NCBI RefSeq assembly: GCF_900113545.1
Contig: NZ_FOPS01000001.1
Location: 323,778-387,777, forward strand
Length of the DNA stretch: 64,000 nt
From: Neisseria elongata subsp. elongata
GTDB taxonomy: Bacteria; Pseudomonadota; Gammaproteobacteria; Burkholderiales; Neisseriaceae
Reading direction: 5' to 3'
In this document: in pieces, positions 2,045 through 21,747 of the stretch
Layout of the letters: each line of letters opens with the position of its first letter
Position numbering within the stretch: position 1 is the first letter of the stretch
Program-made: the position numbers and the translations under genes
The notes under the pieces: model-generated
Databases searched by the model: none
What the model was told of the DNA's origin: nothing
The model's input: the letters and a program-made list of their open reading frames with translations, nothing else

Positions 2045-2338
2045 TTGCTTGAAGACCCAATTAAGCAGCTACCCGGCATTATCAAGAATGTCGATAGGCA
2101 CAGGAAACCCACTCTGTTCTTGACAACACCGGATAACTACTCAAAAACTATTTCAGCAAAAATAGAAGCTTTCAGTAGCGGAAAAAGTGTAGACAACGCT
2201 ACTGATTTCTACAGCCTTTCGGAGGGTGGCATACTTTTTGTGATTGGAGTAACAAAGCTAAAAAAGACATCTTTCAGAAATGAGGCAGCTTTTTTTGATA
2301 CTTTACTCTTTCTCAAGAGACATCGGGGCTTGTTGTAA
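2045..2338 (+). CDS. Hypothetical protein, possibly a gene remnant
   Basis: An open frame of 97 codons starts at a TTG. It is AT-rich and not recognised. Its 3' end overlaps the convergent ParB-like gene by 36 bases. No ribosome binding site is obvious, and the frame abuts the IS5-like fragment, so it may be the surviving end of a longer gene. It could equally be chance. Confidence 0.25.
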   Translation: MLEDPIKQLPGIIKNVDRHRKPTLFLTTPDNYSKTISAKIEAFSSGKSVDNATDFYSLSEGGILFVIGVTKLKKTSFRNEAAFFDTLLFLKRHRGLL

Positions 2339-3202
2339 TTGCTGGGAAACCGTATCTAATGCGGTTAGGATGTCTGCATAATACAAGCTGATGAACTCTT
2401 TCACGGCAGAATTATCTAACAATCTTTTCAAATAACCGCCAGCAACAATCAAAGACAGATTGGTATCACTAATTTCTTTCTCTGTCCGGGTATAGTCCTC
2501 CTTCAACCTGTCCATTTCTTGTTCCAACAGTGAAAGTTTTTCTAGACTATCCGAGTGCTTTTTCTTTTTCTGAGCATGATCAACCAAGTCTTCCTGGGAG
2601 GATGCCACCAAGATCATCTCAGCATAGGACTTGGTGAACTTGTTGGCTGCAATCATCATATCTGCAGCTTCCATCTGTCGGATGGGTTTCATTTTTCGGA
2701 GGATCCGAAACGTATCTTGTGCCAGATGCTTGTCTGCGAGTTTCGCGGCTACTTCGGGCGTGATATCATTCAGCAAATTCAACTTGCTTTCGATTCCGGA
2801 TAAGTTGATATTCAGGGTTTTGGCAATCTTCTCCCTTGGTATGCCTTTGCTAATTGCACGGCTGATCATCCGGTATTCCTGAATTGGGCTTAACCGGTTA
2901 ATTTGCCGGTTATAGGTAAATCCTTCATCGTCTGTGGACAGCAGACATACTACCGTGTCGATTCCTAGTTCTTGTAAGGCAAGCAGACGGAGATGCCCGT
3001 CCAGTAAGAGGTACTTACCGTTTTCTTCATAAACAGCCAGCGGCTCAATAACACCAATTTCCTCTACTGAGGCCAAGATGCTTTTGAACTTCACGCTCCC
3101 CCGTATCCCTTCGGGGAAGGGGTGCATAGTTTGAATATCTTTGAGCGCGATGTTCTTCAATGATGCTTGAAAAGCATAAGTGATGTGTTTAGGCTGATTC
3201 AT
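2303..3202 (-). CDS. ParB/RepB-like nucleoid or plasmid partition protein, second of a pair
   Basis: This is a 299-residue protein of the ParB superfamily. The N-terminal nuclease/CTP-fold segment shows a box resembling ParB motifs: SILASVEEIGVIEPLAVYEE (about 44-63), then LLLDGHLRLLALQELG. A central HTH region follows (PREKIAKTLNINLSGIESKL, about 129-148), then a charged coiled coil (about 205-250) and a RepB-like C-terminal helical segment. The canonical arginine-rich GERR motif of chromosomal ParB is replaced by DGHLR. It is the last gene of a three-gene run with the recombinase and overlaps its paralogue by 14 bases. A role in partition, or as a DNA-bound adaptor for the recombinase, is inference. 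Confidence 0.75.
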   Translation of the reverse strand: MNQPKHITYAFQASLKNIALKDIQTMHPFPEGIRGSVKFKSILASVEEIGVIEPLAVYEENGKYLLLDGHLRLLALQELGIDTVVCLLSTDDEGFTYNRQINRLSPIQEYRMISRAISKGIPREKIAKTLNINLSGIESKLNLLNDITPEVAAKLADKHLAQDTFRILRKMKPIRQMEAADMMIAANKFTKSYAEMILVASSQEDLVDHAQKKKKHSDSLEKLSLLEQEMDRLKEDYTRTEKEISDTNLSLIVAGGYLKRLLDNSAVKEFISLYYADILTALDTVSQQLQQAPMSLEKE

Positions 3203-4082
3203 TGATATATGTTTCCCTATAATGGCTCAGACATTTACTGAGGTTCTCAGGCATATCTACGATTCTCTCTGCCCGAAGCAGTGTTTTGAAATGATTATCC
3301 TCAAACAAACGATTTAACCCAGAAAGAATGATCAGCAGCTGTTGTTGGCAAAATTCAGCCTGTGTTGCCATCAACTGTCTTCGCTTAATCTCATTCTCAT
3401 ACATTTGAAGTAGCTTCTCCTTATTGATAGGTGTATTACGCCTCGGAGTGAAGTGGTAAGTTTTACCATCACGCTTTCTCTGTTGGATCAGTCTCCTGAT
3501 TTTGGCAATATCTCCGCGCTTTAGCTTCTGTTGTTGGTAGAGATCGGATAAAGCCGTTTGAACTTCTTTTTCTTTTGCACGGGAAATATCTACAGCAACG
3601 TCAATCGGCAAATAGCCTTTTTCTACGCCTGCAATCAGGCGTGCCTCACCTTCTCGCAACAAATGTAAAATTCCCCGTATGTATGCTTGATGAAGGCCAA
3701 TTTTTCGTGAAATATCTTTTTCGGAATATCCACGTTCATACAACACCCGAATGGCAGACAGTATTTCCAAATTGGTGTGCTTACGTCTAGCAATATTTTC
3801 AGCCAGGCTGATTAAAAATCCTTCGTCACCACTAACCTCCACAATGTGACACGGTATGTACTCTTCACCTAGCTCTTGGCAGGCGGTCAATCTTCCTTCG
3901 CCGCATAATAGGCCATACCATTGTTCTCCATCCAATATTTCCGATTTGGTAACGGTAATCGGACGCTTTAGACCGACTGCCGCGATGCTGGCGACCAATT
4001 GGTTAAACACTTTGGGGTTCCTACTGCGTGGATTCAGGACCTTGATTCGATTGATCGGTAGTGTTTGAATCACCATCCTCAT
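3189..4082 (-). CDS. ParB/RepB-like protein, first of a pair
   Basis: This 297-residue protein begins RMVIQTLPINRIKVLNPRSR and carries the ParB boxes FNQLVASIAAVGLKRPITVT and LLCGEGRLTACQELG, then ISLAENIARRKHTNLE and an HTH (YSEKDISRKIGLHQAYIRGI). The second half is basic and then helical (QQQLLIILSGLNRLFEDN), resembling the RepB C-terminal domain of plasmid partition proteins. It keeps a more canonical CGEGRL box than its downstream paralogue. Its start overlaps the stop of the recombinase gene (ATGA at 4079-4082), so the genes are probably co-translated. No ParA ATPase is nearby, so ordinary plasmid partition seems unlikely. Confidence 0.75.
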   Translation of the reverse strand: MRMVIQTLPINRIKVLNPRSRNPKVFNQLVASIAAVGLKRPITVTKSEILDGEQWYGLLCGEGRLTACQELGEEYIPCHIVEVSGDEGFLISLAENIARRKHTNLEILSAIRVLYERGYSEKDISRKIGLHQAYIRGILHLLREGEARLIAGVEKGYLPIDVAVDISRAKEKEVQTALSDLYQQQKLKRGDIAKIRRLIQQRKRDGKTYHFTPRRNTPINKEKLLQMYENEIKRRQLMATQAEFCQQQLLIILSGLNRLFEDNHFKTLLRAERIVDMPENLSKCLSHYRETYINESA

Positions 4083-5644
4083 AAAATTGCCTCCTTAATC
4101 AATACCCGTTTACTCATGGCAAAAAAACGACTCAAATCTTTATGGCGATAACAATCCCAGTCAATTGGGTTTTGTTCCGTCAATCTCACTTTGGCACAAT
4201 GGGTTTTTTCGGAAGGAAGTAGATAGTAATCTACTATTTTCTCCGCCGTTTCATCCAGCCGCACAGCTATGGTCAAATCAGGAGCAAGGCTACTGTCAAA
4301 ACGTATAAACCAGCGTTTGGTACCAGCATTGGTTATCCGACAGCGTGCCAGCACTAGAGAAACAAAAAACTCCTGATTAATATGGAGTAAATCGTTTTCC
4401 GGAATGCGGGATACCGCTCCCCCCAGCCGCTCAATTTCTGCAATCGTCTGCTCAACCAGATCTGCATGAGTCCGTCTCAAGGCACGATTGATTTTCAGAT
4501 AGCGATAGTCTCGGCTGGGTGTATAACCTACTTCCCGATAGCTCTTAAGTAGGCTTCCGAAGCGGCTACGGAACATACTGCTGGAAGGGCAATCTGCGGC
4601 TTCATCAATGATCAAACCAGACAGCTTGCCGTTAATTCGGAGTAGCTCCTTTAATTTATCCAGCATTTCTTCATTGCTCCAATGCCGGCTTCTTTGGTGG
4701 ATAATGCTTTGGGCGGCATTGAACAGTACGGTGGAAACAATGGGTTGAAAGACTGAATTAGCCCGTACCCATTGTTCGGAGGCATTCTTGCCTTTATGTG
4801 GCTTGAAGGGCGAATAGCTGCTTTTGTTCCAGACATTATTGCCGATGTATTTTTCGTTAATCAGGATTTGATGCACAACACCTCTAGTCCAAGAGGTGCC
4901 ACGGTCGGTCAAAATGTGCTGTCTGTTTAAATCATCAGCTATCGCCTGTTCGCTCATTTTTTGGTAAATGAAGTCCTCGTAAATTTTCCGGATAACGGCC
5001 TGTTCATGTTCCGGGCCGGGAACCAGAATTACCCTGTCGGTTTGGATACTCTTATGTTCCCCGGCCTTAAGCTCAAATTTTGGCTGCCTATTCTCGTCTA
5101 CCAACAAGCGGCGCAATCCGTACCCTGCAGAGCCACCTTGTCGGAAACCGAGCCTGATCAAGTTTTCTTGCCCGAGAAAAACCTTCTTTGATAGCCCCTT
5201 GCTAAAGAGACCGGCGGAAGTTTGCTGGAATACATCTATGATACCTGTTACTACCGGATCCAACTCTTCTGTTGCCACTGGAATCGGTTCCGCACATTTG
5301 TGCAGAATGATGTTTTGCTGCTGACAGAGGTATTGGTAATAACTAGATTCTTGCGGGTCAATAAAGCGTCCCCAGCGACTCGCGTCATAAACCAAAATAT
5401 GACCGAAATCTGCTTTGCCGCTTCTGACCAAATCAATTAAGTTCAAGAACTGATACCGTTTTTGCGTCACGACTCCGCTGATGCCTTCGTCAATAAATTC
5501 ACCAACAACGGTCAGTCCATTCTTATTGGCATATTCCAGCAAAAAAGCTTTCTGGTTATCAGGCGAATATTTCTGATGATCCGTGGACATACGGATATAC
5601 AGAACCGCTTTTTGCTGTTTTGATAACTGTTCCTTTGGATCCAT
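4079..5644 (-). CDS. Large serine recombinase
   Basis: This is a 521-residue site-specific recombinase. The resolvase-type catalytic domain (about 13-165) has YIRMSTDHQ with the nucleophilic Ser20, then DEGISG and the arginine motif YDASRWGRF. The recombinase domain follows (about 190-320: GYGLRRL, then the wing motif DRGTSWTRGVVHQILINEKY and GNNVWN). The C-terminal 200 residues do not show the zinc-ribbon cysteines of many phage large serine integrases and look specific to this group. It heads a tight three-gene run with two ParB-like genes. A divergent HTH gene lies 55 bases upstream. I infer that it moves or inverts the module that carries it. I could not identify attachment sites. Confidence 0.85.
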   Translation of the reverse strand: MDPKEQLSKQQKAVLYIRMSTDHQKYSPDNQKAFLLEYANKNGLTVVGEFIDEGISGVVTQKRYQFLNLIDLVRSGKADFGHILVYDASRWGRFIDPQESSYYQYLCQQQNIILHKCAEPIPVATEELDPVVTGIIDVFQQTSAGLFSKGLSKKVFLGQENLIRLGFRQGGSAGYGLRRLLVDENRQPKFELKAGEHKSIQTDRVILVPGPEHEQAVIRKIYEDFIYQKMSEQAIADDLNRQHILTDRGTSWTRGVVHQILINEKYIGNNVWNKSSYSPFKPHKGKNASEQWVRANSVFQPIVSTVLFNAAQSIIHQRSRHWSNEEMLDKLKELLRINGKLSGLIIDEAADCPSSSMFRSRFGSLLKSYREVGYTPSRDYRYLKINRALRRTHADLVEQTIAEIERLGGAVSRIPENDLLHINQEFFVSLVLARCRITNAGTKRWFIRFDSSLAPDLTIAVRLDETAEKIVDYYLLPSEKTHCAKVRLTEQNPIDWDCYRHKDLSRFFAMSKRVLIKEAIL

Positions 5645-5699
5645 AACAAATGGCAGGTAATTTATTGATTAACAGAATATAAAGGAACAGTTAGGAAAA
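5645..5699. promoter_or_regulatory. Divergent promoter region between recombinase and HTH genes
   Basis: This 55-base AT-rich gap separates two divergent starts. It contains an imperfect palindrome (TAATTTATTGATTA about 5658-5671) that could be an operator for the HTH protein. Only the layout is seen; control is inference. Confidence 0.35.
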
Positions 5700-6041
5700 A
5701 TGTTGCACTCAAATGGAAAAAAACTTCCCTTGAAGAATATCAATGAAGATATGTGGAAAGAGTTACTCTCAAGCGCTTTATACAAAGAATTGCAGAAAAA
5801 TCATGTCAATGTCAAAAACCTTGCACATTGGACAGGTGTATCAGAGCGAACAGTCAAAAACTGGTTGGAAAAAAGGTTTATGCCTGACAGTTTGGCTATG
5901 ATCAGGTTGATGCAGCATTCAAGCTTTGTCCGTCAAATCGTACTCACTCAGATCTGTTTAAGCGAAAACTTGAAGGCGGCAATGTTCGTGTGTGAATTCA
6001 AAAAGTTTCTTGCTTCATCAGAAGCATATCTGAGAGACTGA
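5700..6041 (+). CDS. Small helix-turn-helix protein
   Basis: This 113-residue protein has an HTH at about 38-58 (VKNLAHWTGVSERTVKNWLE) followed by helical sequence. It begins 55 bases from the divergent recombinase start and is followed by a hairpin terminator. Such a divergent pair usually means that the HTH protein controls the recombinase operon, which I infer. AGGAAAA just before the ATG may be a weak ribosome binding site. I do not recognise a named family beyond the HTH. Confidence 0.6.
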   Translation: MLHSNGKKLPLKNINEDMWKELLSSALYKELQKNHVNVKNLAHWTGVSERTVKNWLEKRFMPDSLAMIRLMQHSSFVRQIVLTQICLSENLKAAMFVCEFKKFLASSEAYLRD

Positions 6042-6048
6042 TACTAGT

Positions 6049-6086
6049 AAAACAGGCATCTCCTGAAGGATATGCCTGTTTTGATT
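6049..6086 (+). terminator. Rho-independent terminator
   Basis: AAAACAGGCAT (6049-6059) pairs with ATGCCTGTTTT (6072-6082) across a 12-base loop, directly after the HTH gene. Confidence 0.75.
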
Positions 6087-6297
6087 TCATAATACAGATC
6101 ACTCAGAGCGATCTAGTGTCGAGAATGTCATCTCAGGGAACTTTTCTCGTGCAAGCCGGCGTAGATTAGTTTGATGCTCGGTACCCGAACAGAGAAATAA
6201 AAAATAGTTTGCTGTTTGCTGTTAAAATAGTCTTCCGATTGCCCGACGCGCCACCGTTTCTGCGTTTTGTTTCCATCACTCAATTGCAACCGTTCCC

Positions 6298-7170
6298 ATG
6301 ATCCGCCTTGCCCTGTTCGCCGACATCCACGGCAAATTCCTGCTCCCCTTCAAGCTCTCGCACCACTACCAGCAAACCACCGGCCAACCCATAGACTTAA
6401 TTGTCCAATGCGGCGATATGGGCGCATTTCCGGATAAGGGCCGTATGGACAAGGCCACGCTGCGTCATGCGGCGAGGGACCGCGACGAATTGGGCTTTAT
6501 GGATGATTTTGTGCACGCCAAGCCGCCGATCGCCCAATTCCTCGACCGGCTCAACCTCAATATGCTCTGCGTACGCGGCAATCATGAAGACCATGAATTT
6601 TTGGATGAATTGGAGCGGCAAAGTGTGCAGGCTGCTTTTCCGATTGATGTTTATCAGCGCGTTTGGGTGCTGAAAACGGGCGAGCCGTTTGTGTTGCAGA
6701 AGGATGGCGAGTCGCTGGAAATTCTCGGCATCGGGCGCATTGGCGATAGGAAACAGCGGCCGCACGGCGAATTTATTCAGGAATATGAACGGCAAACCCT
6801 GCGCCACTTTGTTAAAGACTGCCTGAAAAACAAACACGACCCCGATGTGTTGATAACGCACGACCAGCCTGCCGACAGCCAAAGAGGTTACGGCGCGGAA
6901 GAGATCGCCAGTGTGTTGGACCAGCTGGCGTTTACCTACCATTTTTACGGGCACACGGGCGAGGCATACCAAAACAACTTCGCGGATAACGGCATCACCC
7001 GGTCGGTAAAAATTAAAGAATTGGAATTTGACGGACAGGGAAAATTGTCGGAAGGCTGTATGTTGATTTTGGAAGTGGAGCAGAAGAAAGGGGACAAGCT
7101 GTTTACGCTTTCGCCTGTACTGTTAAACGAGATCATTCATTTTATGCAGGACACTTGGCGGTATTGCTGA
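6298..7170 (+). CDS. Calcineurin-like metallophosphoesterase
   Basis: This 290-residue metal-dependent phosphoesterase has the metallophosphatase motifs in order: LFADIHGK (Asp8, His10), VQCGDMG (about 36-42), VRGNHEDHEF (about 93-102), a histidine in LITHDQPA (about 186-193) and YHFYGHTGEA (about 215-224). The substrate is unknown. There is no signal peptide, so it is cytoplasmic. The gene carries a non-native uptake motif at 6626-6637 that matches a Kingella dialect, and it is convergent with a second, unrelated-looking phosphoesterase. It was probably acquired from another member of Neisseriaceae. Confidence 0.8.
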   Translation: MIRLALFADIHGKFLLPFKLSHHYQQTTGQPIDLIVQCGDMGAFPDKGRMDKATLRHAARDRDELGFMDDFVHAKPPIAQFLDRLNLNMLCVRGNHEDHEFLDELERQSVQAAFPIDVYQRVWVLKTGEPFVLQKDGESLEILGIGRIGDRKQRPHGEFIQEYERQTLRHFVKDCLKNKHDPDVLITHDQPADSQRGYGAEEIASVLDQLAFTYHFYGHTGEAYQNNFADNGITRSVKIKELEFDGQGKLSEGCMLILEVEQKKGDKLFTLSPVLLNEIIHFMQDTWRYC

Positions 7171-7219
7171 TGCGGAAAGGACGGATTGAAAACCCGTCCT
7201 TTTGTTTTGCCGGTTGTTT

Positions 7220-7231
7220 TTCAGGTAGCCT
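7220..7231 (-). repeat. Eikenella-type DUS (AGGCTACCTGAA)
   Basis: This is an exact reverse-complement copy. With the nearby TCTACCTGAAAA (about 7244-7255) it forms an imperfect hairpin between the two convergent phosphoesterase genes. It is a probable terminator of non-native dialect. Confidence 0.55.
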
Positions 7232-7276
7232 GCACCATTCAAGTCTACCTGAAAATTCATTTCTAAAATAAAAAGC

Positions 7277-7936
7277 TCATTCATTCAATGCTGCCAATCT
7301 CGCCCGAACTTTTGCAGCCGCATCTTCCGTGCTGTTGCCAACGATAACATTTTGCTTGTCATCGAAATACTGCATGGCAGGGAGGTCGCGCAGGAAGCCG
7401 TCAATATCTTGTGCGGTCAGGAAACGGCCGTGCATATCCCAGCCGACATTGAGGGCACGTCCTTTGACGGCGGCCATGCGGTCGTGCAGATGGCCGTAGA
7501 GGTGGTATAGGCCGTGGTGGATACCGTCCCATTCGTATAAAGGATAGTGGCACAAAATCGCGGTATTGCCGATTTCGGGCAGTTTGAGCCGCAGGTAATG
7601 GCTGGCGGACGAGAGCAACGGATGGCCGTCGGCTTTGCGCGTGTTGAGGAAATGTGCTTCGTTTTGCCAAATCAGGTAGTCGTGGTTGCCGTAGATCAAA
7701 TGGTGTTGCCCGTTAAGCCGTTGCAGCACGGCTTCGATGTGTGCGGGATTTTTGGCAAAGCAGACATCGCCGAGGTTGTACACAGTGTCTTGCGGGGTAA
7801 CGACGCGGTTCCAGCAGTCGATCAGGTATTCGTTCAGCTCGTTGGTGTTATCGCTTTGTAGGCGGAATTGCGGGCAGTATCGGGCGATGTTGGGATGGGA
7901 GAAGTGCCAGTCGGCGGTGAAATAGGTTTGGGACAT
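7277..7936 (-). CDS. Metallophosphoesterase
   Basis: This 219-residue protein has the motifs FTADWHFSHPN (1st metal site), YNLGDVCFAK, IYGNHDYLIW, CHYPLYEWDG and LYGHLHDRM, then NVGWDMHG. This arrangement is typical of the small phosphoesterases or phosphohydrolases that often sit beside phage, island or RNA-repair genes. Substrate and role are unknown. It starts downstream of the duplicated-domain gene at 8049-8894, with a strong hairpin between them at 7978-8035, so the two may be separate transcripts. Confidence 0.8.
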   Translation of the reverse strand: MSQTYFTADWHFSHPNIARYCPQFRLQSDNTNELNEYLIDCWNRVVTPQDTVYNLGDVCFAKNPAHIEAVLQRLNGQHHLIYGNHDYLIWQNEAHFLNTRKADGHPLLSSASHYLRLKLPEIGNTAILCHYPLYEWDGIHHGLYHLYGHLHDRMAAVKGRALNVGWDMHGRFLTAQDIDGFLRDLPAMQYFDDKQNVIVGNSTEDAAAKVRARLAALNE

Positions 7937-7977
7937 GGGATACTCGGTTTCGGGTGATCTGACAATGAAAAATAAGG

Positions 7978-8035
7978 TGCAGGCTGCTTTAGAGGCCGTC
8001 TGAAACAGGGTTGGGGCGATAAAAAGCAGCCTGCA
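7978..8035. terminator. Hairpin of Kingella-type DUS arms with a native DUS in the loop
   Basis: TGCAGGCTGCTT (7978-7989) pairs with AAGCAGCCTGCA (8024-8035); both are exact copies of one alien uptake dialect. The loop contains the native AGGCCGTCTGAA (about 7994-8005). It lies between two minus-strand genes and probably terminates the upstream one. Confidence 0.65.
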
Positions 8036-8048
8036 CTTTTTTGCCCAT

Positions 8049-8894
8049 CTATCTGCCGGTCAATACCAACCGTCGGCAGAAGGCTTCCCAGTCGGTAAGG
8101 TGCACAACGTGCGTGCCGTCTGCCAACGGGTGTACATCGGAAGCGCAGGCAGTGCGCCAATAGATGTAAAACGGAAGTTTGGCGATGTCGGCTTCCAATA
8201 CGGCAGCATTGTCTTGTTCTGGCGTATGCACAATCGGCAGGCCGAAATAGCTATATTGGCCGTCTGCAGCTTGTTTACTGGTATGGCCGGTTTGGCCGCG
8301 GTGTTTACCGGTACGGACAAACCGGCGGCAGAATGCGTTCCAATCGTGCAGAAAAACGGCGGCTTGCCCGTCTATTAGGCTTTGGGCAGAACCGATGCTG
8401 CTGTCCCGCCAAAATGAATAGAACGGCAATTCGGCGATGTGGTACTCCATGACGACAGGATAATCGCCCTGTCCTGCCGGCCGCATCACCGGAACGCCGA
8501 AACAGGCGGTTTCAGGCAAGGTATGTGCAGGCTGCATGAAGGCGTTTTGTAGGATAACGGCCGCTTCGGCAGGGTCGATGCCCAAACTGTCTATGGCAGG
8601 CTGCAAAGTTGCGGGCAGGTCGCAAAAGCAGCCTGCACCGGCCGGAAGGCAATACACCGAGTTGTGCGTATGGGCCAGAGGTGCCGCCCATCGGGTAACG
8701 GGCGAAGTGCGGATCCGACCGCCTGCGGCAAAGCGCCCCGACCCGTCTTGAGCGACCGTGCCGTACACCACGGCATAATCGGATTTGCCGGGCGTGTGGT
8801 AGCGCGTGAATGTCCAGTCGGTGAGCTTGCAGGAGATAAGGGCGCCGTCGTGGAAATGTTCGGATGGGATGGGGTTGGCGGGGGTGTTGGGCAT
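8049..8894 (-). CDS. Hypothetical protein with a duplicated C-terminal domain
   Basis: This 281-residue protein is not recognised. The last 140 residues are two copies of a segment of about 65 residues. Each begins with a G(V/L)P motif, then an E..IA(E/K)LPFY core, a tryptophan-arginine pair and an ending (N/E)AFCRR.V.TG. The N-terminal half has its own motif (GRFAAGG.IRTSPV) and a cysteine pair. There is no signal peptide or membrane segment. The first copy ends at GKHRGQTGHT, a likely linker. The gene holds a Kingella-type uptake motif at 8626-8637, which suggests transfer. The function is unknown. Confidence 0.6.
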   Translation of the reverse strand: MPNTPANPIPSEHFHDGALISCKLTDWTFTRYHTPGKSDYAVVYGTVAQDGSGRFAAGGRIRTSPVTRWAAPLAHTHNSVYCLPAGAGCFCDLPATLQPAIDSLGIDPAEAAVILQNAFMQPAHTLPETACFGVPVMRPAGQGDYPVVMEYHIAELPFYSFWRDSSIGSAQSLIDGQAAVFLHDWNAFCRRFVRTGKHRGQTGHTSKQAADGQYSYFGLPIVHTPEQDNAAVLEADIAKLPFYIYWRTACASDVHPLADGTHVVHLTDWEAFCRRLVLTGR

Positions 8895-13683: not shown

Positions 13684-16600
13684 ATGAATAAAACCCTTTA
13701 TCGCATTATCTTCAACCGCAAACGCGGCTGTATGATGGTTGTTGCCGAAACCGCCAAGCGCGAGGGTAAAAGCTGTGCCGATACCGATTCAGGCAGCGTT
13801 CATGTTGAAACCAATCCTATTAACGGTTTTGCTCTTCGTTCTCGCGCATTCTCCATTTCCCTATTGGGCTTTTCCCTGTTTTTAGCTCTAGGTACAGCAA
13901 GTATCACCCATGCGCAAGGCATTGTTGCTGATAAACATGCGCCCAAAACCCAACAAGCCACGATTTTGCAAACAGGTAACGGCACACCGCAAATCAACAT
14001 TCAAACCCCTACTTCGGCAGGGGTTTCTGTCAATCAGTACCAGCAGTTTGATGTGAATGGCAAAGGGGCGATTTTAAATAACAGTCGTGGTAATGTGCAA
14101 ACACAGCTAGGTGGTTGGATTCAAAGCAATCCTTGGTTGGCAAGGGGCGAAGCTCGGGTGATTGTCAATCAAATCAACAGCAGCCATCCTTCACAACTGA
14201 ATGGCTATATTGAAGTGGGTGGACGACGGGCTGAAGTAGTGATTGCCAATCCAGTGGGGATTGAAGTCAATGGCGGTGGTTTTATCAATGCTTCTCGTGC
14301 GACTTTGACCACAGGTACACCACAATATCAAGCAGGTGCATTAACAGGCTTTCAAGTCCGTTCGGGCGAAGTGGCCATTCATGGACAAGGTTTGGATACA
14401 CGAGATACGGATTACACCCGCATTCTCAGTTATCACACCAAAGTCAATGCGCCAATCTGGGGTAAAGATGTTCGGGTGGTGGCAGGACAAAATGATGTGG
14501 CGGCAACAGGTGATGTGCATTCGCACATTCAAAGTAATGCAGCTGCCAATACATTAACCCAAGGCGCAAATGCACCTATGTTTGCCATTGATACAGGTGC
14601 ATTAGGTGGGATGTATGCCAATAAAATCACTTTAATCAGCACGACTGAACAAGCTGGCATTCGCAATCAAGGACAGTTGTTTGCCACAGCTGGCAATGTG
14701 GCGATAGATGCCAAAGGGCAGTTGGTTAATAGCGGCACGATTGCCGCCACAAATGCACAAGACGCGAATCATTCAGAGGCGCACAAAGTCAATATCCGCA
14801 GTCAAACCGTTAAAAACAGCGGTACGATTGCTTCACAACAAAGTACGCAAATTCAAAGTCAATCCATTCAAAACACAGGCACAGTATTATCTTCCGGTGA
14901 ATTAGATATTCACAATTCAGGTAGCCTGAAAAACCAAACATCAGGCAATATTCAAGCAGCACGTTTGGCTGTTCATACCGACGCACTGGATAATCAAGGT
15001 ACGATTGCACAAACAGGTTCACAAAAACTGCATATTCAAGCCAATGGTCAATTAAGCAATAGTGGCAAAATCGGTTTGCCAGACACAACACCGACTGCAT
15101 CAAATAATTCAGGCAACCATACAGGCAATCACCACAATACACCTTCTCATTCATCAGCTACCGCACCCACAACTGCCACAGGTATGGGTAGCGCAACCGT
15201 TTCTACTTCAATCACAAATGCACCTACCTTTGCTGATGGGACAATCCAAACGCGTGGGGCATTGAATAATTCAGGCAACATCATTGCCAATGGTCAAACA
15301 AATGTTACTGCTCAGCACGGTCTCCACAATGCAGGGCAAATGGCTATTCATCAGTTAAACGCCAAAGGTTCGGCATTTAACAATCACAATGGGACGTTAA
15401 TCAGTGATAAAGCCCATATTCAAACCAACAATCTCAATAATCAAAACGGCAACATCACAACACGCCAACAATTAGCGATTGAAACCGCTCAGCTGAATAA
15501 TGCCAATGGTCAATTGTTGTCGGCAGAAAAAGCGGATTTAGCGGTTTCAGGCAGCCTGAATAATACGCAAAAAGCAGAAATTCAAGCCAAGCATTTAAAT
15601 CTCGATGTTGGTCATTTGGATAATGCGGGTCATATTCTTAGCGAAAGTGGTCGTATTGCCAGTCAAAACAGCTTACGCAATTCGGGCAATATTGCTGTTG
15701 GAGAACTGACAACAAAAGGGCAAATCTTAGACAATACCCAAGGGCAAATTGCCGTAGATAAAGCCGATATCCAAAGTCAGCAACTGCTCAATCAAAACGG
15801 CAACATCACGACCACAAAACAACTGACTGTCCATAGCCAAAAGGCAGAAAACCAACAAGGCAAACTTTTGTCTGTTGAAAATGCACAATTCACCGTTTCA
15901 GGCAGCCTGAATAATCAAAATGGCGAAATCGCGACCAATCAACAACTGACCATTAACGATGGTCGGCAGTACACCCTTGCCATTGATAACACGAACGGCA
16001 AGATTCAATCGGGTCACGATGTTGTTATTCAGGCAAAATCTTTATCCAACAATGGTATGCTTGCAGCTGATAATAAGCTCGATATTGTGTTAAAAGATGA
16101 TTTCCATGTGGAGCGCAACATTGTAGCGGGCAATGAACTTTCATTCAACACACAAGGCAGCCTGAAAAATTCACATACTTTACAAGCTGGAAAACACATT
16201 CAGATTCAAGCGAACAGCATTGATAATGCAGCGCAAGGCAGTATCCAATCAAGCGGCACAACAAATATTGTCGCGCAGCACAATTTAACCAACCGTGGCT
16301 TGATTGACGGACAACAAACCAAAATCCAAGCGGGGCAAGTGAATAATATCGGTACAGGTCGGATTTATGGCGACAATATCGCTATTGCGGCTACTCGCTT
16401 AGACAATCAAGATGAAAACGGCACAGGTGCCACCATTGCTGCACGAGAAAACCTGAATTTAGGGGTTCATCAATTAAGTAACCGTGAAAACAGCCTGATT
16501 TACAGCGGTAATGACATGGCAATTGGCGGTGCATTGGATGCCCAAGGTCAAGCCATAGGAAAAGCCAAAAGCATACGCAATGCCAGCGCCACCATTGAAG

Positions 16601-19600
16601 CCGCCGGCAAAATGCGTTTAGGCGTAGAAAAGCTGCTCAATACCAATGAGCATTTGCAAACGCAGTTGGTAGAAACAGGGCGTGAGCATATTGTGGATTA
16701 CGAAGCATTTGGACGCCACGAATTATTGCGAGAAGGTACACAGCAAGCATTGGGTTGGTTTGTGTACAACGATGAATCAGACCATTTACACACGCCCGAT
16801 GGTGTGAATCATGAAAATTGGCATAAATACGATTATGAAAAAGTCACCCAAAAAACCCAAGTTACCCAAACCGCGCCAGCCAAAATCATTTCAGGTAATG
16901 ATTTAACCATTGATGGTAAAGAAGTATTTAATACCGATAGCCAAATCATTGCTGGTGGCAATCTCATTGTGCAAACAGAAAAAGACGGTTTGCATAACGA
17001 GCAAACCTTTGGCGAGAAGAAAGTCTTCAGCGAAAACGGTAAGTTGCACAACTACTGGCGTGCGCATCGTAAAGGACGCGATGAAACAGGACATAGCGAA
17101 CAAAACTATATTTTGCCAAAAGAAATCACCCGCAACATTTCACTGGGTTCATTTGCCTATGAATCGCATAGCCAAGCATTAAGCCATAACGCACCTAATC
17201 AAGGCACAGCTTTACCGACAAGCCAATGGGATAATATCCGTACTGTACAAAACAACGGTATTTCGCTACCCAATACACCCAATCCTTTTACCCAACTACC
17301 CAGTAGCAGTCTATACATTATTAACCCAGCCAATAAAGGTTACCTTGTTGAAACCGACCCACGCTTTGCCAACTACCGTCAATGGCTAGGTAGTGATTAC
17401 ATGCTGGGCAGCCTCAAACTAGACCCCAACAATCTACATAAACGTTTGGGTGATGGTTATTACGAGCAACGCTTAATCAATGAACAAATCGCAGATCTAA
17501 CGGGGCATCGTCGTTTAGATGGTTATCAAAACGACGAAGCACAATTCAAAGCCTTAATGGATAATGGCGCAACCGCTGCACGTTCCATGAATCTCACGGT
17601 TGGCATTGCACTAAATGCCGAGCAAGTCGCACAGCTAACCAGCGACATTGTTTGGTTGGTACACAAAGAAGTCAAACTTCCTGATGGCAGTACGCAAACC
17701 GTGTTGGTGCCACAGGTTTATGTGCGTGTGAAAAATGGCGACATAGACGGTAAAGGTGCATTGCTCTCTGGTAGCAATGCACAAATAGACGTTTCAGGCA
17801 GCCTGAAAAACTCAGGCACGATTGCAGGGCGCAATGCACTGATTATCAACACCGATACACTGGACAATATCGGTGGACATGTTCATGCACAAAAAGCAGC
17901 CATTTCTGCCACACAAGACATCAACAATATTGGCGGTACTCTTTCTGCTAAAAATGCCCTGATACTTCAAGCAGGCAACAACATCAACAGCCAAAGCACT
18001 ACCGCCAGCAGTCAAAATACACAAAGCAGCAGCACCCACCTAGACCGAATAGCAGGTATTTACATCACAGGCACAGAAAAAGGTGTTTTAGCAGCGCAGG
18101 CAGGTAATGATATTAACATCATCGCCAGTCAAATCAGCAATCAATCAGAGCAAGGACAAACCCAGCTGCAAGCAGGGCGCGACATTAACCTAGATACGGT
18201 ACAAACCAGCAAACATCAAGCAACCCATTTTGATGCTGATAACCATGTTATTCGCGGTTCAACTAACGAAATTGGTAGCAATATTCAAACGCAAGGTGAT
18301 GTTAACCTGTTAGCAGGCAATAACCTCAATGCCAAAGCTGCCGAAGTCAGCAGCGCAAACGGTACACTCGCTGTGTCTGCCAAAAATGACATCAACATCA
18401 GCGCAGGCATCAACACGACCCATGTTGATGACGCGTCCAAACACACAGGCAGAAGCGGTGGTGGCAATAAATTGATTATTACCGACAAAGCCCAGAGCCA
18501 CAACGAAACCGCCCAAAGCAGCACTTTTGACAGCAAGCAAGTTGTATTGCAGGCAGGAAACGATGCCAACATCCATGGCAGCAACGTCATTTCTGACAAT
18601 GGCACCCATATCCAAGCAGGCAATCATGTTCACATTGGCACAACCCAAACCCATAATCAAAGCGAAACCTATCATCAAACCAAAAAATCAGGTTTGATGA
18701 GTGCAGGTATTGGCTTCACGATTGGCAGCAAAACAAACACACAAGAAAACCAATCCCAAAGCACCGAACATACAGGTAGTACCGTAGGCAGCCTGAAAGG
18801 CGATACCACCATTATGGCAGGCAAACACTACCAACAAATCGGCAGTACCGTTTCCAGCTCGGAAGGCAACAATACCATCCATGCCCAAAGTATAGACATT
18901 CAAGCGGCACACAACCAATTAAACAGCAATACCACCCAAACCTATGAACAAAAAGGCTTAACGGTGGCATTCAGTTCGCCCGTTACCGATTTGGCACAAC
19001 AAGCTATTGCCGTCGCACAAAGCAGCAAACAAGTCGGACAAAGCAAAAATGGTCGTGTCAATGCCATGGCAGCAGCCAATGCAGGCTGGCAAGCCTATCA
19101 AACAGGTAAGAGTGCACAAAACTTAGCCAACGGGACAACCAATGCCAACCAAGTCAGCATCTCCATTACCTATGGCGAGCAAAAAAACCAACAAACCACC
19201 CAAATTCAAGCAAGCCAAGCCCAAGCAAGTCAAATTCAAGCAGGTGGTAAAACCACATTAATTGCCACAGGTGCAGCAGAACAATCCAACATCACCATAA
19301 CAGGTTCAGATGTAGCGGGTAAAGCAGGTACCACCCTGATTGCCGATAACGACATCACACTCCAATCCGCCGAACAAAGCAGCAGAGAACGCAGCAACAA
19401 CAAAAGCAGCGGCTGGAACGCAGGAGTCGCCGTATCATTCGGACAAGGGGGCTGGTCATTGGGCATTACCGCAGGCGGCAATGTCGGCAAAGGCTACGGC
19501 AATGGCGACAGCATCACCCACCGGCATAGCCATATTGGCGACAAAGGTAGCCGAACCATCATTCAAAGCGGCGGCAACAGCACCATCAAAGGCGCCCAAG

Positions 19601-21747
19601 TCATTGGCCAAGGCGTACAAGTTGATGCCCAAAACCTGACCATTCAAAGTGTACAAGATAGCGAGAGCTATCAAAGCAAACAACAAAACGCCAGCGCACA
19701 AGTTACTGTCGGCTATGGATTCAGTGCCAGCGGTAGTTACAGCCAAAGCAAAATTAACGCTGAGCACCAAAGCGTCAGCGAACAAAGCGGCATTTATGCG
19801 GGTGATGCGGGCTATCAAGTGAATGTGAAACAACACACCCAACTTGATGGCGGCATTATCACCAGTAGCCAAAGCGCAGAAGATAACGGCAAAAACCGAT
19901 TCATCACAGGCACACTTGCCAGCAGCGATATTCAAAATTACAGCCGATACAAAGGTGAAAGTTTCGGACTGGGTGCCAGCGCAACAATCAGCGGTAAAAC
20001 ACTGGGGCAAGGAGAACAAAACCATCCGCAAGACAGTCACTTAACAAGCGTAGCGGATAAAAACGGTACAAGTTCATCAGTAGGTTATGGCAGCGATCGA
20101 GACAATCAAAGCAGCATCACAAAAAGCGGCATCAACACCCAAAATATCCGCATTACAGATGAGGACAAACAAATCCAACTGACGGGCAAAACGGCACAGG
20201 AGACCAAAGCCGACATATACACAAACACAACCAGCGAAACCGCGCAACAACATTCAGGCAGCCTGAAAAACGTGTTTGATAAAGAAAAAGTGCAAAGTGA
20301 ACTGGATTTACAAAGAGCGGTTAGCCAAAGTTTCAACCAAAACGTTCAAGCAGCCAATACCGAAATTAACCAACGCCTTGACCAACTCAAAGCACAACTA
20401 GAAAAAGGCGAGATAAGTCAAAGCGACTACGACACCCAAGTGAAAAATTGGCAACGAGGACAAGTGCTACTCAACAGCATCGCCGCAGGCTTAAGTGCGC
20501 CGACCCAAAGCACAACGGGCATAGTAGCCGCAACTGCATCACCAGCATTGTCATATGAAATTGGACAACAATTCAAAAAACACAATGCAGAAGGCACACC
20601 TGCACATATCCTTGCCCATGCGGTATTAGGAGCGGCTGTTGCAGCGGCAGGAGACAATAACGCCCTAGCAGGTGCGATTAGCGCAGGTGGGGCGGAGGCT
20701 GCTGCGCCGATTATCAGTAACTACCTCTACAATGAGCAAGATGGCAGCAAACTGACGGCGGAGCAGAAAGAGACTGTAACCGCGATTACAAATCTGTTGG
20801 GAACGGCTACGGGGGCGGCAATCGGAAACAGCGCAACAAACGCAGCACAAGGTAGCCTGAATACACAGAGCGCAGTGGAGAATAATTATATTTCTTTCCC
20901 AAACAAAAATGACGCAATGCAATTTATTAATATCATCGCACCCTCTACTCCAAATTTAAAATTGAAAGTTGATGAAAACAATAGATTAGTCATTGATGGT
21001 TATCATTATGAAAATTTAGATGGTGTATTAACTTTGGTATCTGATGAAACAGGAGCGCCAATTGTTTTACAAGGAAAAACTGTATTTGAAAATCTTTTAA
21101 TTAGTAGCATGAAAAACCCTGATGAAAATAAATTTCCTATTACAGATAATCCGACACTATATGTTGATTCATATGCCAAAATGATTTGGGATCCAAGTGA
21201 TTTTAATACACCAAACATGAATGATAATGCTCAAACAAATAAAGAATATCAGCATTTAGCAAATCGTTTACTTATTACACAACCTATAGTTGAACGTTTA
21301 AATTCTCAAAATTATACCCAAAATAGTGAAGAATTTGATAAAGCGGAAACAGAACTAAATTCAATCTTACATAAATATCGATATAATCGTTTAAAAGATT
21401 TTTTAACAGATGTAACACCTATAAAGTTGAAAGAACGACAAGGTCAAAATTTGACATCTGAAGAGCATAATTTGCTGCAAGATGCAAATTTAGCATTTCA
21501 ATATCATACCATACTAAAGATGTTCTCAGATAATATTTATAAAAAAGGGATGAATGTACAGAGTGATATTCTAAAAGAAAAATTCCCACACCTAAAAGAT
21601 AAAATTATTAGTGCAGATAAGCCTGAAAATTATACAGAAAATGGAAAGGTTGTGGGTTTAATGTCAGATTTTGGAGCAGTAAAATTTATTATGTACACTA
21701 ATCCAGAACAAAATCAAATATTGAAAACTAGATTTATTATCGAATAA
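13684..21747 (+). CDS. tpsA: TpsA: two-partner secreted filamentous haemagglutinin / CdiA-type contact-dependent inhibition protein
   Basis: This 2687-residue exoprotein has, in order: an extended signal peptide region (1-52, MNKTLYRIIFNRKRG), a hydrophobic core (55-75) with likely cleavage after THA (77), the TPS/haemagglutination-activity domain (about 90-330; NPxGI-type motif at 189-193, then GGGFINASRATLTTG), long haemagglutinin repeats (for example SGSLKNSGTIAGRNAL), and a pre-toxin region with alanine/glycine-rich helices (about 2310-2390). The VENN junction is at 2398-2401, followed by about 286 residues of unrelated, AT-rich toxin sequence ending at the stop. AAGGAG 5-10 bases before the ATG is a good ribosome site. 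Six exact Kingella-type DUS copies lie within the gene and no native DUS does. The toxin activity is not recognised. Confidence 0.9.
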   Translation: MNKTLYRIIFNRKRGCMMVVAETAKREGKSCADTDSGSVHVETNPINGFALRSRAFSISLLGFSLFLALGTASITHAQGIVADKHAPKTQQATILQTGNGTPQINIQTPTSAGVSVNQYQQFDVNGKGAILNNSRGNVQTQLGGWIQSNPWLARGEARVIVNQINSSHPSQLNGYIEVGGRRAEVVIANPVGIEVNGGGFINASRATLTTGTPQYQAGALTGFQVRSGEVAIHGQGLDTRDTDYTRILSYHTKVNAPIWGKDVRVVAGQNDVAATGDVHSHIQSNAAANTLTQGANAPMFAIDTGALGGMYANKITLISTTEQAGIRNQGQLFATAGNVAIDAKGQLVNSGTIAATNAQDANHSEAHKVNIRSQTVKNSGTIASQQSTQIQSQSIQNTGTVLSSGELDIHNSGSLKNQTSGNIQAARLAVHTDALDNQGTIAQTGSQKLHIQANGQLSNSGKIGLPDTTPTASNNSGNHTGNHHNTPSHSSATAPTTATGMGSATVSTSITNAPTFADGTIQTRGALNNSGNIIANGQTNVTAQHGLHNAGQMAIHQLNAKGSAFNNHNGTLISDKAHIQTNNLNNQNGNITTRQQLAIETAQLNNANGQLLSAEKADLAVSGSLNNTQKAEIQAKHLNLDVGHLDNAGHILSESGRIASQNSLRNSGNIAVGELTTKGQILDNTQGQIAVDKADIQSQQLLNQNGNITTTKQLTVHSQKAENQQGKLLSVENAQFTVSGSLNNQNGEIATNQQLTINDGRQYTLAIDNTNGKIQSGHDVVIQAKSLSNNGMLAADNKLDIVLKDDFHVERNIVAGNELSFNTQGSLKNSHTLQAGKHIQIQANSIDNAAQGSIQSSGTTNIVAQHNLTNRGLIDGQQTKIQAGQVNNIGTGRIYGDNIAIAATRLDNQDENGTGATIAARENLNLGVHQLSNRENSLIYSGNDMAIGGALDAQGQAIGKAKSIRNASATIEAAGKMRLGVEKLLNTNEHLQTQLVETGREHIVDYEAFGRHELLREGTQQALGWFVYNDESDHLHTPDGVNHENWHKYDYEKVTQKTQVTQTAPAKIISGNDLTIDGKEVFNTDSQIIAGGNLIVQTEKDGLHNEQTFGEKKVFSENGKLHNYWRAHRKGRDETGHSEQNYILPKEITRNISLGSFAYESHSQALSHNAPNQGTALPTSQWDNIRTVQNNGISLPNTPNPFTQLPSSSLYIINPANKGYLVETDPRFANYRQWLGSDYMLGSLKLDPNNLHKRLGDGYYEQRLINEQIADLTGHRRLDGYQNDEAQFKALMDNGATAARSMNLTVGIALNAEQVAQLTSDIVWLVHKEVKLPDGSTQTVLVPQVYVRVKNGDIDGKGALLSGSNAQIDVSGSLKNSGTIAGRNALIINTDTLDNIGGHVHAQKAAISATQDINNIGGTLSAKNALILQAGNNINSQSTTASSQNTQSSSTHLDRIAGIYITGTEKGVLAAQAGNDINIIASQISNQSEQGQTQLQAGRDINLDTVQTSKHQATHFDADNHVIRGSTNEIGSNIQTQGDVNLLAGNNLNAKAAEVSSANGTLAVSAKNDINISAGINTTHVDDASKHTGRSGGGNKLIITDKAQSHNETAQSSTFDSKQVVLQAGNDANIHGSNVISDNGTHIQAGNHVHIGTTQTHNQSETYHQTKKSGLMSAGIGFTIGSKTNTQENQSQSTEHTGSTVGSLKGDTTIMAGKHYQQIGSTVSSSEGNNTIHAQSIDIQAAHNQLNSNTTQTYEQKGLTVAFSSPVTDLAQQAIAVAQSSKQVGQSKNGRVNAMAAANAGWQAYQTGKSAQNLANGTTNANQVSISITYGEQKNQQTTQIQASQAQASQIQAGGKTTLIATGAAEQSNITITGSDVAGKAGTTLIADNDITLQSAEQSSRERSNNKSSGWNAGVAVSFGQGGWSLGITAGGNVGKGYGNGDSITHRHSHIGDKGSRTIIQSGGNSTIKGAQVIGQGVQVDAQNLTIQSVQDSESYQSKQQNASAQVTVGYGFSASGSYSQSKINAEHQSVSEQSGIYAGDAGYQVNVKQHTQLDGGIITSSQSAEDNGKNRFITGTLASSDIQNYSRYKGESFGLGASATISGKTLGQGEQNHPQDSHLTSVADKNGTSSSVGYGSDRDNQSSITKSGINTQNIRITDEDKQIQLTGKTAQETKADIYTNTTSETAQQHSGSLKNVFDKEKVQSELDLQRAVSQSFNQNVQAANTEINQRLDQLKAQLEKGEISQSDYDTQVKNWQRGQVLLNSIAAGLSAPTQSTTGIVAATASPALSYEIGQQFKKHNAEGTPAHILAHAVLGAAVAAAGDNNALAGAISAGGAEAAAPIISNYLYNEQDGSKLTAEQKETVTAITNLLGTATGAAIGNSATNAAQGSLNTQSAVENNYISFPNKNDAMQFINIIAPSTPNLKLKVDENNRLVIDGYHYENLDGVLTLVSDETGAPIVLQGKTVFENLLISSMKNPDENKFPITDNPTLYVDSYAKMIWDPSDFNTPNMNDNAQTNKEYQHLANRLLITQPIVERLNSQNYTQNSEEFDKAETELNSILHKYRYNRLKDFLTDVTPIKLKERQGQNLTSEEHNLLQDANLAFQYHTILKMFSDNIYKKGMNVQSDILKEKFPHLKDKIISADKPENYTENGKVVGLMSDFGAVKFIMYTNPEQNQILKTRFIIE
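20887..21747 (+). other. Variable C-terminal toxin domain of TpsA
   Basis: These are the codons after VENN. Base composition drops sharply to AT-rich compared with the repeat region, as expected for a swapped CdiA-CT cassette. Visible motifs include LRDFLTDV-like helices (YRYNRLKDFLTDVTPIKLKE), TSEEHNLLQDANLAFQYHT and a final SDFGAVKFIMYTNPEQNQI. I cannot match it to a known toxin class. Confidence 0.6.

Follow-up and report, generated by a model that had tools for sequence, protein, structure and literature searches.

The window analysed here is a stretch of 64,000 nucleotides from the 2.36-Mb genome of Neisseria elongata subsp. elongata (contig NZ_FOPS01000001.1, positions 323,778 to 387,777), and its subject is a group of four genes at window positions 2303-6041. 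On the minus strand, the gene of a large serine recombinase of 521 amino acids (4079-5644) is followed by the genes of two different RepB/ParB-like proteins, here called ParB1 (3189-4082) and ParB2 (2303-3202), both recognised from their open reading frames (ORFs), Pfam matches and profile searches. The stop of the recombinase and the start of ParB1 share 4 bp (4079-4082), and the two ParB genes overlap by 14 bp (3189-3202). On the opposite strand, 55 bp from the recombinase, starts a gene encoding 113 amino acids (5700-6041, plus strand), whose helix-turn-helix (HTH) matches lie under the Pfam cut-offs and which may encode a regulator; judged on sequence only, the gap between the divergent starts (5645-5699) is the expected promoter/operator. 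The ORFs, the two overlaps and the divergent gene agree with the first-pass annotation, a note made by a model from the letters of the window.

The recombinase matches the Pfam domains PF00239 (Resolvase, 6.2e-19) and PF07508 (Recombinase, 2.4e-20), and no Pfam match was found after residue 318. Large serine recombinases have a C-terminal domain with a zinc ribbon and a coiled coil. Both ParBs carry the RepB domain PF07506 (5.5e-16 in ParB1 and 2.1e-29 in ParB2). ParB_N scored above its cut-off in ParB1 (7e-8, 32.8 bits) and under it in ParB2 (20.1 vs 26.3 bits), and HTH_ParB in ParB2 was likewise under the Pfam cut-off; by profile search, a ParB N domain and an HTH are present in both. When each of the three proteins was aligned over 11 rows, taken from the window, nine plasmid records and a single record of the phage collection, mean column identity came to 67% for the recombinase and of 55% and 54% for the ParBs. 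Among the catalytic serine and arginines of the recombinase, S20, R90 and R93 are invariant in all 11 rows and R18 is found in eight, the other three being gapped there. The first-pass annotation had pointed to a difference between the ParBs in their key motif (CGEGRL against DGHLR), and this difference holds family-wide in the aligned rows as C-G-[QE]-G-R in ParB1 and D-G-[HR]-[LIV]-R in ParB2.

A profile search of the PDB matched the recombinase to the solved structures of YokA, TP901-1 and TnpX, ParB1 to those of Spo0J, Noc and KorB, and ParB2, more weakly than ParB1, to those of Noc and Spo0J. With the large serine recombinases TP901-1, SPbeta YokA, TnpX and Ccr the module shares the Resolvase catalytic domain, PF07508 and a frequent position at the edge of elements, the match to the NCBIfam CcrB model being weak and far under its cut-off. 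Some large serine integrases work with a single small directionality factor, whereas the recombinase of this module has two ParB-like partners in one operon. The ParB N domain and the HTH are common to the module ParBs and to the CTP-dependent clamps ParB/Spo0J, Noc and KorB, from which the module ParBs differ in their RepB-type domain, in having a serine recombinase as neighbour and no ParA annotated beside them, and in the GERR box that forms the CTP site of the solved proteins, altered to GQGR/GEGR in ParB1 and mostly to GHLR in ParB2. Because this box is changed in both proteins, CTP clamping by ParB1 and ParB2 is left here as a possibility only.

Many relatives, though not all, have a small divergent gene beside the recombinase. 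Such genes are annotated at the HTH position in L002, L003, L004 and L008, a WT-x-A/V-x-ERT-x-K-x-WL-like motif is found in the ORFs at that position in L002, L016, L031, L036, L079 and L092, and no ORF of at least 90 amino acids lies between the upstream integrase and the recombinase in L168. In one group of relatives, the region of the gap between the divergent starts contains repeats such as GGCACAACTGTGCC.

The three minus-strand genes recur together in other genomes. A recombinase scan of genome contigs found at least 580 relatives at E <= 1e-3, of which 80 were kept, and a scan of virus contigs found 136, of which 80 were kept. Where the recombinase was followed by 1900 bp or more (a locus with room), the complete trio was present in 146 of 147 loci (70 from genomes, 66 viral and 11 from plasmid or phage records), a set in which many loci are close relatives and not mutually independent; the count leaves out 24 loci that lacked room, the weak L007 and the locus of the window itself. 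A strict-offset filter recognised 143 of the trios and three were recognised by eye, namely L119, with a split recombinase, and L141 and L148, with longer offsets; the single incomplete locus, L143, has a ParB1 fragment and no ParB2. Searches that started from the ParBs agreed with this count, with the qualification that the three viral sets overlap. From ParB1, the recombinase was found upstream in all 60 viral loci with room (63 loci, three without room), in 55 of them by the filter and in five by eye, one with a partial recombinase (L348). From ParB2, among 80 viral loci kept, ParB1 was present in 65 of the 65 with room and the recombinase in 55 of 56, where only the distant L431 lacked it. 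Because the arrangement recurs in 146 of the 147 loci with room, it is not due to chance. The suggestion in the first-pass annotation that the combination may be widespread was borne out, the triplet being neither unique to this genome nor split into ParB genes apart from the recombinase. The module is found in plasmids, chromosomes and prophages, on genome and virus contigs alike, and one genome (G057) has three modules, two of which share 8.1 kb at 91.8%.

These distributions bear on two other roles for the ParB pair. A partition or maintenance module, in which the ParBs would keep an excised or plasmid form and the recombinase would resolve multimers, is suggested by the RepB/ParB homology and by the near-full-length ParB1 relatives contained in 47 plasmid records. 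We consider it very improbable, given that no ParA is annotated within the module in the nine annotated plasmid records or found among the window ORFs at 2303-6041, that the module also occurs on genome and virus contigs, chromosomes and prophages included, and that PF07508, a domain of large recombinases, sets the recombinase apart from the small resolvases. The first-pass annotation had judged partition unlikely for want of a ParA, and we agree. RepA and RepC are the partners of RepB in the RepABC system; the module shares PF07506 with that RepB and differs in having two different RepB-like proteins, no RepA or RepC seen, and a distribution that extends to genome and virus contigs. Alternatively, the ParBs may not be recombination cofactors and may instead regulate the element in the manner of KorB or Noc, which would be compatible with an integrase role of the recombinase. 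Their solved relatives (Noc and KorB for ParB1, Noc for ParB2) agree with such a role, and a shared operon would fit co-regulation, but the near one-to-one tie to one recombinase family, on elements whose other genes differ, points to the recombinase as the partner, and we regard the regulator role as distinctly unlikely.

The trio moves as a unit in three lineages, Pseudomonas, Agrobacterium and Sphingobium, where the same unit with sharp ends was found in different surroundings; the evidence for mobility comes from these lineages, and the window copy stands outside the comparison. The Pseudomonas unit of p12939-PER (L002 7911-12379) matched the virus contig L131 at 92.8% over 4478 bp between unrelated flanks; the match begins 10 bp beyond the stop of the HTH gene and runs until 634 bp past ParB2, and L002 and L131 showed no further match. 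The Agrobacterium unit of pAt C58 (L004 7919-11822) matched pAt1D1460 at 96.9% over 3904 bp, both flanks being unrelated and the only matches outside the unit being two of 32-39 bp. A 19-bp T-arm-like site, CCTTGANNGGRATYGAACC, stands at both ends of this unit in direct orientation with 0-2 mismatches, and two related Agrobacterium plasmids have the same left flank up to the T-arm-like site and no module. In both Pseudomonas and Agrobacterium the relatives of the HTH gene form the left end of the unit, which ends just beyond the HTH stop. The Sphingobium unit is about 5.6 kb long and has one extra gene (L011, about 2782-8384). Most of the query is present in five of the 44 plasmid records that matched it; the left end was seen against one other occupied record with a different left side, and the right end against four module-less records, in three of which arsH adjoins a DUF2493 gene and the fourth of which has the right flank behind another left side. 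A repeat of about 75 bp at this junction makes the exact ends of the Sphingobium unit approximate. The first-pass annotation had proposed a comparison of occupied and empty sites as a way to find the attachment (att) core. The comparison gave unit ends in these three lineages, and no common att core was found among 137 loci, as described below.

Two repeated sequences met in this comparison also occur elsewhere on the same plasmids. The repeat of about 75 bp stands before the DUF2493 gene and the ssb gene of Sphingobium-type plasmids (L011 8432-8505; L285 4210-4281). A 17-bp version of the T-arm-like site, allowing one mismatch, occurs 39 times on the four Agrobacterium pAt plasmids (W01-W04, that is L004, L242, L243 and L241), with no occurrence of the reversed control; 12 of 12, 4 of 4 and 7 of 9 copies lie on one strand in three plasmids, and the fourth has 7 and 7 in separate parts. 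The site flanks a VapBC segment of 888-889 bp at three places as well as a nucleotidyltransferase gene, and follows AbiEii. The pAt sites look like a cassette system.

In many Alphaproteobacteria and a few other bacteria a structured RNA of about 123 nt, starting within about 75 bases of the ParB2 stop and on the same strand, is part of the module. It shows strong covariation and was found in 65 of 170 loci by a covariance model (E below 1e-11) for which 41 of the 65 had supplied training rows, and 64 of the 65 copies lie right behind ParB2. The copy of L068 is 3.9 kb further on, and in L085 ParB2 itself is split. A structure of 23 pairs was formed in 98.3% of the cells of 42 sequences and in 36-46% when slid, a percentage that is favoured by the structure having been derived from nearly the same sequences; cells with a double change numbered 64 against 15.1 in shuffles, and none of 500 shuffles reached as high a value. 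In 28 whole genomes, picked for having the module, 22 of 25 strong RNA copies were directly behind ParB2, and one more match was weak. Rfam 15 gave nothing at the RNA of L079 up to E 5 and no gathering-score match in eight loci, four of them with the RNA; it was thus not found in Rfam 15 and is new in this analysis. RNA-bearing and RNA-less modules are interspersed in a quick tree of 141 recombinases. The window gave no match to the covariance model up to E 1, either in the corresponding 3' region (2214-2302, minus strand) or anywhere else.

IS607 uses a serine recombinase, and IS607/IS605 elements have an RNA at their right end. The module resembles them in being mobile and, in many relatives, in having its last gene followed by a structured RNA, and it differs in that no TnpB is annotated, the recombinase is large and the RNA has no Rfam match. 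The RNA might assemble with the ParB pair and be needed for integration or excision, which would amount to RNA-dependent choice of site by a serine integrase; we regard this as speculative and quite improbable.

Some RNA copies and other structured regions were observed outside this pattern. Three copies were off ParB2, one being a second copy 5 kb on in L016/L227 (L227 9918-10041 and 14952-15074) and two being solo copies in L225 (9679-9799) and L226 (1503-1623). The L227 pair encloses a gene of 1162 amino acids and a gene read by eye as PIN-type. In a second lineage (L101, L113-L115 and L121) a differently sequenced structured region with a long terminal hairpin lies 0-230 bp after ParB2, with z values along the 3' region of -1.0 to -6.9. 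In L002/L131 one window of 14 reached z -3.7, and in the L123 group one of nine reached -4.4, the others lying between -1.3 and 1.7.

The explanation we favour, which we hold to be somewhat more probable than all others together, is that the trio and the divergent HTH gene form a mobile serine-integrase module with dedicated ParB-like DNA-binding cofactors. The recombinase would integrate and excise the element that carries it, be it a prophage, an island or a minimal unit of 3.9-5.6 kb, and it likely catalyses the observed moves of the unit. Encoded on one message, the two ParB-like proteins would load at sites in or near the element ends and determine the site, the timing or the direction of recombinase action. 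The HTH protein, acting at the divergent promoter, would control the operon, whose message would, in many Alphaproteobacteria, terminate in the conserved structured RNA that belongs to the module. The interpretation in the first-pass annotation is partly supported here, namely in the wide spread of the trio and in partition being unlikely; its suggestion that the ParB pair, possibly as CTP-driven clamps, would guide or restrain the recombinase, with the HTH protein as switch, is conjectural. It had missed the defined moving unit, the tendency to lie at provirus edges and the structured RNA of many relatives.

This explanation is supported by the linkage of the trio, its movement as a unit in three lineages, the invariant S20, R90 and R93, and the position of the module within larger elements. 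Of the 80 viral loci, 57 lie in records of at least 20 kb (one duplicate dropped), and in 32 of these 57 the module lay near a record end, against 11.6 expected for a uniform position. "Near" means that the record ends no more than 3 kb ahead of the recombinase or 3.8 kb behind it, limits picked after the positions had been seen. Fifteen of the 80 viral loci found from ParB2 begin within 150 bp of ParB2. Transfer RNA genes lie within 3 kb of the module in few loci (nine on the left and five on the right, among 172), and 12 of these 14 point their 3' end at the module, four of the 12 being close relatives at tRNA-Met. Of 31 virus records tried, 20 gave no match to the tyrosine-integrase domain PF00589, and in one host genome (G049:C12) the nearest such match is about 160 kb from the module.

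A contrary explanation makes the trio cargo, namely a defence system against phages or plasmids that sits in defence hot spots of prophages and islands, with the recombinase acting on invading DNA that the ParBs recognise; we think this unlikely, while giving it more weight than the other alternatives. In its favour, the other 11 of the 31 virus records have a tyrosine integrase (PF00589) of their own, although this set includes closely related records and possibly incomplete ones. Cargo is a possible reading for the L154-L173 group in particular, because the trio there sits behind a tyrosine integrase gene at a 3' end that we read from its sequence as that of ssrA/tmRNA, and RelA/SpoT-type and NA-iREase2 genes lie downstream in L168. 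Four of the nine annotated plasmid records (L003, L004, L005 and L008) have genes of defence or toxin type near the module (AbiEii, Fic, Abi family, restriction endonuclease and ParDE), a count made without a control tally. Against cargo, the recombinases and ParB1s tried gave no PADLOC match (2023 library, seven proteins in all) and two ParB2s gave only a weak match to a methyltransferase model; the trio also moves as a separate, sharply bounded unit in three lineages, and 20 of the 31 virus records lack a tyrosine-integrase match.

Several other observations, together with the tyrosine integrases of the 11 virus records and of the L154-L173 group, weigh against the mobile-integrase explanation. 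No product of excision or of integration was seen, and a virus record may end where it does through trimming or a contig break. There was no common att core, only six of 137 loci (L156, L162, L052, L144, L028 and L090) beating the best of 137 mismatched pairs in a test that is insensitive, as the known imperfect Agrobacterium repeats fail it too. No repeat of the tRNA-Ser end of at least 12 bp was found in the 120 kb around the L051 module, and Agrobacterium plasmids without a ParB1 match also have T-arm-like sites. The recombinase of the window, which keeps R18, S20, R90 and R93, has L at the near-invariant E146 and K at R149, plus a four-residue insertion. 

Other comparisons count neither for nor against. 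T-arm-like sites on both sides, with one mismatch, were found in one of 132 loci, and single sites at 10 left and 3 right flanks against 1 and 2 for a control pattern, by a test that misses the Agrobacterium pairs too. L092 had no relative with a flank beyond matches of about 35 bp, and the relative compared with L014 has a rearranged junction. The repeat that scored in L156 and L162 in the search for an att core derives from a tyrosine integrase gene: behind ParB2 of L156 (9488, 13446) and L162 (9472, 13448) stands a diverged repeat of about 160-190 bp of the 3' end of the upstream tyrosine integrase, as if the unit were inserted in the 3' end of that gene.

Of the 46 genomes of the genus, two contained a match to the recombinase of the window copy, namely the genome of the window itself and G016, the latter weakly and partially (27% identity, residues 9-336, E 1.1e-5), and on account of this distribution the window copy was probably acquired horizontally. 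A module-less site was not found for it, the right flank having no useful match in other genus genomes and the left flank consisting of repeats, and E. coli genomes gave no DNA match to the module. The copy may be decayed and possibly inactive, because near-invariant residues are changed and repeat debris lies directly 3' of ParB2. Stretches 1880-2017 and 2019-2213 are repeated in other genus genomes and are probably insertion-sequence debris, some part of 1880-2340 being matched in 34 of the 46 genomes. Downstream of ParB2 an ORF at 586-1515 encodes a tyrosine integrase with central and catalytic domains and no arm-domain match in Pfam, and it adjoins an apparent transposase fragment, read by eye. 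On the other side, part of the metallophosphoesterase gene at 6225-6890 has a 96% copy elsewhere in the same genome (G000:C7), and 13684-21747 is one open reading frame of 2687 amino acids.

No paper was recognised as describing the trio in the open PMC library, most of the papers being judged on titles and the starts of abstracts, in keeping with the statement of the first-pass annotation that it knew of no described function. PMC6536676 places serine recombinases in 16 Paracoccus prophages and has a largest cluster (11 out of 15) with unidentified integration sites. PMC3925955 describes phiPam-6 of Paracoccus aminophilus as an inducible phage with a serine recombinase, 17-bp flanking repeats and a tRNA-Met site. 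By description alone, phiPam-6 is like the module in its serine recombinase and tRNA-Met site; it was not among the phage records listed (15 of 107).

The control of direction and target of a serine integrase is a practical question, and the module offers a large natural family (at least 580 genome relatives) in which two ParB-like proteins, and in many cases a structured RNA, go with an integrase. Serine integrases serve as genome-writing tools, and the established setting of ParB clamps is the segregation of chromosomes and plasmids. If it holds true, a ParB pair dedicated to recombination would be a new use of the ParB fold, and with units of defined extent and sites free of the module, the question lends itself to a direct test in a laboratory strain.

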